The notes below the pieces were generated by a model, which had not been told where the DNA came from, searched no databases, and was given only the letters and a program-made list of their open reading frames with translations. The position numbers were made by a program, and so were the translations under genes. Below, one piece after another: positions 41,589 to 44,063 of a stretch of 64,000 bases of DNA. The stretch is from Promethearchaeota archaeon (lineage in GTDB: Archaea > Asgardarchaeota > Lokiarchaeia > Sigyniarchaeales > SOKP01), in contig JAEOTA010000084.1 of assembly GCA_016840085.1 (NCBI GenBank), forward strand, positions 1 through 64,000, written 5' to 3'. Position 1 is the first letter of the stretch. The number at the start of each line of letters is the position of its first letter.

Positions 41589-41885
41589 AATCTAATTCTA
41601 ATAATAAATCTTAGATATTTAAATAATATATATTACGTATTAATCTTACTTACGCAACCCTTAAATAAATTTAAGTAGTTGTTTAATTATTTTTAAGTTG
41701 ATATAATATTAAAATTTACTTTTAATCTGCTTGGATATATAATAAATAGATAATGTGATAGATAAAAAATCTGAAATTTTTCTTATTAAAAATAGAGTAT
41801 ATTAATAAAAATATAATAAGAAAAATAATTATTATAAATAATATAATATAAGTTTAAAATTTTAAAGCAGTATTGGTGTAGGCTT

Positions 41886-42290
41886 ATACAATTCGGGTCG
41901 GATTTAGGAATTAACCAAGAAGATATCGAAAAGATTAGCCCTCAAATCACATTTATAACATCAAATGCGGATATAGAGGCGATAGCTCTAGTTAGTTCCG
42001 AAGGTTATCAAATAGCATTCTCTGCATTACCCCAATATCATGTTGATGGTGATCAATTTTGCGGACTTGCTAGTGCTTTATTGATGACAGGAAGATCAAC
42101 TATTCAAACTCTATTCCAAGAAGATTTAAGTGAAGTGATTGTTCGAGCCGAAAATGGTTATATTGTCATTACAAATGCTGGTAGATTAGTTATTGTTTGT
42201 GCGGGGACAATTATTGATACATTAATGAAGACAGTAAAGGTAATGAGGATCGCCGCCAAGAACCTATACAAAATTTTTGAAGAACACTAA
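41886..42290 (+). CDS. Roadblock/LC7 protein with apparent ATA start
   Basis: The 134-codon frame encodes a Roadblock-type domain: NADIEAIALVSSEGYQIAFS, GLASALLMTGRSTIQTLFQE, VIVRAENGYIVITNAG and LVIVCAGTIIDTLMKTVKV. No ATG, GTG or TTG precedes this core in frame; the first in-frame ATG (42081) would lose almost half the domain. An ATA at 41886 follows GTGTA (41876-41880) with 5 bases between. An alternative would be a leaderless or otherwise unusual start. It diverges from the large unknown operon and lies 5' of the Trp leader region. Confidence 0.78.
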   Translation: MQFGSDLGINQEDIEKISPQITFITSNADIEAIALVSSEGYQIAFSALPQYHVDGDQFCGLASALLMTGRSTIQTLFQEDLSEVIVRAENGYIVITNAGRLVIVCAGTIIDTLMKTVKVMRIAAKNLYKIFEEH

Positions 42291-42407: not shown

Positions 42408-42415
42408 TTTTTAAA
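42408..42415 (+). promoter_or_regulatory. TATA-like element of the trp leader
   Basis: TTTTTAAA at 42408-42415 matches an archaeal TATA box. A start about 25 bases downstream (around 42440) would give a short 5' UTR of ~20 bases before the leader ORF. Assignment is from consensus only. Confidence 0.4.
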
Positions 42416-42454
42416 GGTTGATATATTGTAAAGTTTCATAATAATAAGTAAGAC

Positions 42455-42572
42455 TTTGGTTTATGATTATGGCAACTGTAATATATTTTACTTGGCAGTG
42501 GCCTTGGTGGCGGCAATAGCGCCATATGCATAGGATTAAACCAAACTAATATTCTCATTTTAATATTAAAAT
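42455..42572 (+). promoter_or_regulatory. Structured leader RNA with mutually exclusive helices (candidate attenuator)
   Basis: Visible complementarity: TTTGGTTTA (42455-42463) pairs perfectly with TAAACCAAA (42537-42545), 9 bp, sequestering the leader AUG; nested inside, TATGGC (42468-42473) pairs with GCCATA (42521-42526), 6 bp. Competing with the latter is a local hairpin TGGCG (42508-42512)/CGCCA (42520-42524) with the leader stop codon in its loop. Downstream lies a perfect 16-base palindrome, ATTTTAATATTAAAAT (42557-42572). No T-run follows the hairpins directly, so translation-level or antitermination control is as likely as intrinsic termination. Confidence 0.6.
42463..42519 (+). CDS. 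Trp-rich leader peptide upstream of trpB2
   Basis: An 18-codon ORF (MIMATVIYFTWQWPWWRQ, stop TAG 42517-42519), or 16 codons from the second ATG at 42469. Four of the six codons 42493-42510 are TGG (Trp), the rarest amino acid. The next gene, 128 bases downstream, is tryptophan synthase beta. This is the arrangement of bacterial trp leader peptides, where ribosome stalling at Trp codons controls downstream expression. No strong Shine-Dalgarno sequence is seen, only GGTTT just ahead. Function is inference; the reading frame and its codon content are seen. Confidence 0.72.
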   Translation: MIMATVIYFTWQWPWWRQ

Positions 42573-42647
42573 CTCCCTTAAATGCGCATTAATTTTATTG
42601 ATTTCCAATATTTTAATGAAACACTTTAAAAAAAATATGAACAGATT

Positions 42648-44063
42648 ATGGGAAATAAAATGGTAGATTATTTTAATGGAAGAGTTTTATTACAACCGAA
42701 TGAAATACCGAAAGAGTGGGTAAATATTTTACCAGATTTACCCTCTCCTATGACGCCCTTAATAAATCCAATGGATGGAAAACCAGCACCCCCAGAAATG
42801 GCGCTGGCAATATTTCCAAAAGAATGTGTAATGCAAGAAATATCTCAAGAACCAACAATTCCAATTCCAAAGGATTTGAGGGAAATTTTTGCTAGATCTT
42901 ATAGACCAAGTCCTCTTCATCGTGCTTTAGGATTAGAAAAATCGTTAGGAATAGAAGGTGATGATATAAAAATTTTTTATAAGAATGAATCATATTCCCC
43001 TACAGGTTCTCACAAACCAAACACAGCAATAACACAAGCATATTATGCGAAAAAAGAAGGGCTTGAAGAACTAGTAACAGAAACAGGAGCCGGACAATGG
43101 GGTTCTGGTTTATCTTATGGATGTAATTTATTTGGATTGAAATGTACTGTCTATATGGTAAGAATCAGTTTTATTCAAAAACCAGGTAGAAAGATTTTGA
43201 TGGAAGCTTACAATGCTAAAGTGCACGCAAGCCCTTCGAAGTTTACCGAATCAGGAAAAAAATTTCTTGAAAAAGATCCAGAGCATCCGGGTAGTTTAGG
43301 AATCGCTATATCTGAAGCATTAGAACATAGTCTAAAAAGTGAAAAAATAAAATATTCTCTTGGAAGTGTTGTAAACTTTGTACTCTTGCATCAGACTATT
43401 GTAGGTCAAGAAGCAAAATTACAATTAGCAAAAGTCGGTATAACTAAACCTGATATAATAATTGGATGTATGGGAGGTGGATCTAATTTTTCGGGGTTAA
43501 TGATCCCTTTTGTTAAAGACAAATTACATGGTAAACTTCCAGATCTTGAAATAATTGGTGTAGAACCACGAGCTTGTCCTAGCGTTTGTAAAGGACAATA
43601 TCGATGGGATTTTGGAGATACTTCTATGAAAGGTCCAATTGTAAAAATGTATACTTTAGGACACTCATTTATTCCGAGTCCAATTCATGCTGGAGGTTTG
43701 AGGTATCATGGAATGGCTCCAATAATTTCAATTCTTAATAATAACAATGTTATCTCTGCAACTATGCATCATCAAACAGAAGTTATAAAGTCAGGGCTTC
43801 TCTTTACTAAAGCTGAAGGAATCCTTCCTGCTCCTGAAACGGCTCATGCAATAAAAGAAACAGTTGATCAAGCATTAAAAGCTAAAGAAAACAATGAAAA
43901 GAAGGTCATCCTTTTTAATTTCAGCGGTCATGGATTTTTTGATTTACTAGCTTATAAACAATACATGTCTGGAGAATTGGAGGATTATGAATTATCTTCA
44001 GAAGAAATTCAAAAAGCTTTATCATCACGAGAAATGCCTAATATTGATGAATCTCAATTTTAA
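42648..44063 (+). CDS. trpB: Tryptophan synthase beta chain, TrpB2 type
   Basis: The PLP lysine lies in GSHKPNTA (residues ~121-128), preceded by FYKNESYSPTG; ETGAGQWGSGLSYG (~145-158) and the glycine-rich GCMGGGSNF phosphate loop (~275-283) are present. The 471-residue length and N-terminal extension are those of the TrpB2 subgroup, which can act without a classical TrpA partner. It makes Trp from indole (or O-phosphoserine in some members) and serine. No other trp genes are near, but a Trp-rich leader ORF lies upstream. A poly-T stretch (44070-44078) follows the stop. Confidence 0.95.
   Translation: MGNKMVDYFNGRVLLQPNEIPKEWVNILPDLPSPMTPLINPMDGKPAPPEMALAIFPKECVMQEISQEPTIPIPKDLREIFARSYRPSPLHRALGLEKSLGIEGDDIKIFYKNESYSPTGSHKPNTAITQAYYAKKEGLEELVTETGAGQWGSGLSYGCNLFGLKCTVYMVRISFIQKPGRKILMEAYNAKVHASPSKFTESGKKFLEKDPEHPGSLGIAISEALEHSLKSEKIKYSLGSVVNFVLLHQTIVGQEAKLQLAKVGITKPDIIIGCMGGGSNFSGLMIPFVKDKLHGKLPDLEIIGVEPRACPSVCKGQYRWDFGDTSMKGPIVKMYTLGHSFIPSPIHAGGLRYHGMAPIISILNNNNVISATMHHQTEVIKSGLLFTKAEGILPAPETAHAIKETVDQALKAKENNEKKVILFNFSGHGFFDLLAYKQYMSGELEDYELSSEEIQKALSSREMPNIDESQF

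Follow-up and report, generated by a model that had tools for sequence, protein, structure and literature searches.

A conserved tryptophan-codon leader upstream of trpB2 in Lokiarchaeia and its probable role in ribosome-mediated attenuation

Attenuators of the E. coli trpL type have three parts: a short ORF, in the leader transcript of the trp genes, in which UGG codons cluster; a hairpin that overlaps the Trp codons and the stop codon; and a U-rich tract that precedes the structural gene. In the bacterial tryptophanase operon, the Trp-related leader peptide TnaC is the basis of a different arrangement, in which the position of the ribosome controls factor-dependent termination downstream; tnaC responds to free Trp, depends on one critical Trp codon and induces catabolic genes. 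In archaea, trp genes are known to respond to Trp through TrpY of the Methanothermobacter type, a DNA-binding repressor that acts on initiation and whose operator we take to be the TGTACA box. No attenuation was known in archaea as of 2021 (PMC8448881), and our search of the literature, including that from 2022 onward (subscription journals and preprints not covered), found no archaeal leader-peptide attenuator. The suggestion of an earlier note on this DNA, that a leader of this kind might be new for archaea, is in keeping with that record.

Here, we describe a short Trp-rich ORF upstream of trpB2 in a window (the whole stretch of DNA that was analysed, 64 kb) from a Lokiarchaeal genome. All three of the trpL features listed above have counterparts at this locus, where the leader transcript is a predicted one. 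The element differs from trpL in its archaeal host, in the absence of an Rfam match, in its WQWPW peptide core, in occurring at several distinct trp loci, stand-alone trpB2 among them, and in the addition of a long-range helix, P1, and a distal hairpin, C. Furthermore, the Lokiarchaeal family has no GC-rich hairpin directly before the U-run, and it is archaeal RNA polymerase and aCPSF1/FttA that would carry out termination. Because the Rfam matches fail and an antiterminator is unproven, we do not file the leader in the trpL attenuator family. It resembles tnaC in having a Trp-related leader peptide on which ribosome position may control factor-dependent termination downstream, but its run of Trp codons precedes biosynthetic genes, whereas tnaC induces catabolic ones. 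TrpY provides Trp-responsive control in archaea, as is proposed for the leader, but does so as a repressor; the leader is almost never found together with TGTACA.

The leader ORF and its conservation before trpB2

The forward-strand ORF at 42463-42519 encodes the 18-codon peptide MIMATVIYFTWQWPWWRQ, with TGG codons at 42493, 42499, 42505 and 42508. Both the ORF and the placement of TGG at four of six consecutive positions had been claimed in the earlier note, and translation of the window confirms them, with the conserved start shifted to the second in-frame ATG, at 42469, which is the one that aligns in relatives and yields the 16-residue peptide MATVIYFTWQWPWWRQ. The same note held that such a Trp cluster was improbable by chance; this is the only cluster of four Trp in six codons on either strand of the window, and none was present in ten dinucleotide-shuffled windows. 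The gene 3' of the leader, named there as TrpB2, is indeed a TrpB2-type synthase, matching NCBIfam PRK12391 and TIGR01415 (trpB_rel) above cut-off. Conservation of trpB2 and an SD-like GGG favour ATG 42660 as its start over 42648. No trpB2 relatives were found on viral contigs. Between the divergent gene and the leader lies a Roadblock/LC7-like ORF (41880-42290, forward strand; identified by eye, without an NCBIfam match), which has no in-frame ATG, GTG or TTG upstream of 42081, yet seems to be coding from about 41885.

The check proposed in the earlier note was an alignment of trpB2 upstream regions from relatives, and loss of the ORF or of its Trp codons in close relatives was to refute the proposal. 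The close relatives named here are 'Candidatus Lokiarchaeota' and 'Lokiarchaeia' MAGs. A homologous Trp-rich ORF precedes trpB2 in most Lokiarchaeal relatives, with the consensus M-A-T…W-Q-W-P-W-R-W-Q-stop; leader peptides from the same genus or family include MATVKNITWQWPWRWQ, MATLQTFGWQWPWCWQ, MTLAKNLAWRWQWPWRWR, MATEKNTFWRWQWPWRF and MVTENNCFCWQWPWRS, each ending at a stop codon. At least three Trp within eight codons of a startable ORF were found in 34 of 49 trpB2 upstream regions, compared with an average of 0.03 in shuffles, and WxW adjoining a stop occurred in 37 of the 49 on the coding strand and in none on the reverse strand. Outside the leader's own family, among 18 trpB2 upstream regions drawn from elsewhere in the order, class and phylum, WxW adjoins a stop in 13 (0.07 when shuffled), for example as LTWPWH, TFPWAWRP, FSWSWRE and FWAWRWLTWP, again each before a stop. 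The refuting outcome thus did not occur, either within the family or beyond it. Some relatives lack the leader, and its distribution outside the class is patchy (6/53 in a wider sample of the phylum). In one genus (g7; L026, L027, L138 and L139) the Trp run WRWQWAWRWCR has no in-frame ATG; a TTG lies 25 codons before the stop, and the start codon is unclear.

Within the leader alignment the stop codon keeps one position and changes in identity (TAA in 19 sequences, TAG in 8 and TGA in 5), synonymous codons vary for Pro, Arg, Gln, Ala and Thr, and gaps come in multiples of three, apart from a gap of one base that follows the Trp run. The leaders of other families have Trp codons near the stop in common, and nucleotide similarity is absent. 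A fixed frame and stop position, combined with changing stop and synonymous codons, indicate a translated ORF and not paired TGG bases alone. Comparison of sequences, on which this inference rests, therefore supports the view that the leader is translated and that selection acts on both its Trp codons and its hairpin before trp genes.

Trp leaders at other loci and the TrpY system

When a covariance model of the leader element was run on the genomes of 147 relatives, all strong matches (E below 1e-5) preceded trpB2 or trpD. The genome under study carries a second copy (C46:18042-18147; MATEKIILFRWQWLWRA) at the head of an operon comprising trpD, trpC, trpF, trpB1, trpA, trpE and trpG, in which the stop hairpin is GCGCG..CGCGC, the usual form being GGCGTT..AACGCC. 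Different Trp-rich leaders, with the ending W-F-W-x-W-(R/H)-W-H-(A/V), stand directly before trpE in several genomes (TWFWAWRWHV, TWFWVWRWHA and TWFWDWRWHA, each followed by a stop), and in one genome a leader of this trpE type precedes trpA (gene read by eye). The recurrence of the Trp run before trpB2, the trpD operon, trpE and trpA lends support to the translation-coupled Trp sensor that the earlier note had inferred. No similar leader was found in this genome before either of the PF00579 synthetases (trpS-type), the two hisG genes or pheA. At one further locus (L144, G034:C12:154341) trpE has decayed, yet the Trp-rich leader ahead of it, MTYFFNETWFWAWRWHE, has outlived the gene.

TGTACA boxes are present in only 1 of 60 leader-bearing upstream regions, compared with 23 of 60 leaderless ones (Fisher p = 2.6e-7, not corrected for phylogeny). 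In leaderless Asgard relatives these boxes are often located at trpB2, and in several leaderless families the divergent gene beside trpB2 encodes a TrpY-family regulator (NF053754). At L168, L170 and L171 the TrpY-family regulator is divergent from trpB2 and the TGTACA boxes are often in tandem, 10 nt apart. TrpY itself has no match in the genome under study, with no member of the family among the matches listed, and TGTACA is absent from the upstream region of its trpB2. The earlier note's reference to TrpY as an archaeal trp regulator thus applies beside trpB2 in leaderless Asgard relatives but not to this genome. One genome of another family (G051, family f5) is an exception and carries both the leader and the TrpY/TGTACA system. 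As far as genome comparison can tell, the pattern is what the swapping of one Trp sensor for another would leave.

Promoter and RNA structure around the leader

Relatives share a TATA-like box (Table 1) at constant spacing, some 50-60 nt before the leader start codon, and from it we predict a transcription start near 42437-42443, about 25-30 nt before the leader. Since the box is conserved at this distance, the leader should be transcribed together with trpB2. A transcription start downstream of 42520, which would also have refuted the original proposal, is contradicted by the box, in the absence of transcript data.

RNAalifold predicted almost nothing on the alignments, since the TGG repeats allow the hairpins to shift register; pairing was therefore assessed by species-swap and shuffle tests. 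Support for structure resides in the set of sequences: the single window sequence folds unremarkably (z -1.1), and hairpin A is not significant in it alone. As a set, hairpin A scores z -6.1 against shuffled post-stop DNA and pairs better within than between species (species-swap z -4.3); its overlap with the Trp codons and the stop satisfies the 1:2 pairing criterion of the trpL type. Helix P1, which links the 5' UTR to the DNA past the conserved box, has a species-swap z of -4.7 and two-sided changes in all 7 pairs. Support for P2, in which the start region pairs with the Trp run, is weak and limited to one-sided changes. Hairpin C has a species-swap z of -7.2 and a fold z of -10.8, with two-sided changes in 7 pairs, covariation of 0.217 compared with 0.114 when shuffled, and 25 two-sided cells compared with 11 in shuffles. 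Two trpB2 upstream regions (L006 and L088) have lost the leader and kept part of hairpin C together with GACACA, suggesting that hairpin C may act without the leader. A possible hairpin D lies just before trpB2 in many relatives (for example CACATCTTCAGATGTG in L017 and CATCTATAAAATAGATG in L024), its pairing apparently kept despite sequence change; this was judged by eye only.

The U-rich segment beyond P1 is 50% T, 29% A and 6% G, and a U4 tract is present in 31 of 32 sequences. In the leader's own family no GC-rich hairpin immediately precedes this tract; in relatives of family f2 a hairpin plus U5 was seen by eye. In Lokiarchaeota, aCPSF1 terminates transcription at U-tracts (PMC8716108). 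The pairings CAGTG:CATTG and CATTGGA:TCCAAT were attractive, but neither is accompanied by covariation; complementarity of the conserved box to TCCAAT is present without it, and a mutually exclusive antiterminator helix could not be shown. In silico folding with a ribosome footprint left the distal folds unchanged and revealed no switch. A tRNA or known RNA at the site was rejected, as ARAGORN and Rfam found nothing there; at the gathering score Rfam, whose families include trp leader, T-box and riboswitches, matched nothing in the window other than rRNA and tRNA, with no relevant local match. Whether the P1 internal loop might be SECIS-like, H/ACA or a kink-turn was considered by eye, and these ideas were dropped; the reading frame and the Trp codons account for the conservation.

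Table 1. Features of the leader region and trpB2 (positions in the window)
Feature	Position	Strand	Basis or remark
TATA-like box TTTTTAAA, predicted promoter	42408..42415	+	column block TTTTTAAA/TTTATAAG conserved upstream of leader in relatives
P1 5' arm TTGGTTT, long-range helix	42456..42462	+	pairs with 42538-42544
Trp leader peptide MATVIYFTWQWPWWRQ, then stop	42469..42519	+	translation and alignment with relatives; 42463 is an in-frame ATG further upstream
P2 5' arm GGCAACTG, overlaps end of start codon	42471..42478	+	pairs with 42496-42503 in untranslated RNA
Trp codon run TGG CAG TGG CCT TGG TGG, presumed stall site	42493..42510	+	conserved in relatives
Hairpin A, over last codons and stop	42508..42524	+	42508-42512 with 42520-42524
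Conserved box CATAGG, after hairpin A	42529..42534	+	CATTGG or CAATGG in relatives; alignments A1/A3; partner unresolved
P1 3' arm AAACCAA	42538..42544	+	species-swap test and changes on both sides
U-rich, G-poor segment, presumed termination zone	42546..42575	+	holds AT-rich hairpin B
Hairpin B, AT-rich	42547-42553 with 42562-42568	+	z -5.9 as a set
Hairpin C, distal (GCATTA..ATTG-loop-CAAT..TAATG)	42587..42618	+	covariation in relatives
trpB2, TrpB-like PLP enzyme	42660..44063	+	NCBIfam; start by alignment with relatives; ATG 42648 also possible

Attenuation and alternative readings

We consider it likely, with good confidence, that the Trp-codon leader peptide controls the trp genes by ribosome-mediated attenuation, although there are no transcript, ribosome-profiling or reporter data. 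That the leader senses Trp is well supported; the stall, the direction in which it acts and an output by termination are inferences. When Trp-tRNA is plentiful, the ribosome would pass the UGG run, reach the stop codon and leave, upon which hairpin A and P1 would form in the RNA near the stop and the polymerase would halt in the U-rich tract, where aCPSF1/FttA would act. When Trp-tRNA is scarce, the ribosome would stall on the UGG run and its footprint would occlude hairpin A on the 5' strand; with the terminating fold thus blocked, the polymerase would continue into trpB2. The same device may serve the trpDCFBAEG operon of this genome.

The main rival to this proposal retains a Trp-sensing leader and assigns it an output other than termination, the stalled ribosome altering trpB2 translation or shielding the mRNA from cleavage by way of the distal hairpins. 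It draws on hairpin C, which is near trpB2, is the best-supported helix and partly persists in the leaderless L006 and L088, and on the distance of the U-rich tract from hairpin A. The start of trpB2 is nevertheless about 40 nt past hairpin C, no distal helix changed with ribosome position in silico, and the remote L173-L175, judged by eye, seem to lack anything beyond a leader, a hairpin, a U-tract and the gene; we regard this output as unlikely without dismissing it. Far less credible is a structured RNA, either a Trp riboswitch or a protein-binding RNA, in which the TGG triplets would be paired bases and not codons. P1, P2 and hairpin A do meet in a three-way junction when the RNA is not being translated, and CAGTGG is almost invariant as nucleotides in the leader alignment, but reading frame, start and stop stay in place even though the type of stop codon and the choice among synonymous codons differ, the trpE leaders and those of other families have Trp codons by the stop and not the nucleotide sequence, and no Rfam family matches.

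The possibility that the Trp-rich peptide is itself a small protein working in trans has a bacterial precedent in peTrpL, which is reported to do so (PMC7298713), and the WQWPW core is conserved beyond the needs of Trp sensing. Its N-terminal residues vary freely, however, the trpE and other-family leaders have only Trp in common, and the adjoining genes are always trp, and we give this reading very little weight. A chance ORF without function, which the shortness of the reading frame and the lack of a significant fold in the window sequence alone might have suggested, is already refuted by conservation, and both the shuffle controls and the recurrence before other trp operons count against it.

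Attenuation through the leader peptide remains the reading that we prefer, and it is probable that this is the first archaeal ribosome-mediated attenuator, in which an Asgard amino-acid regulon is sensed by leader translation and executed by aCPSF1/FttA or U-tract termination, in lineages without TrpY. Steric competition between the ribosome and FttA has been proposed and is an open hypothesis (PMC11616081); the leader would provide a short, transplantable element with which such competition at the polymerase can be tested. If the readout needs linked transcription and translation, functional coupling would be shown in the archaea closest to eukaryotes.
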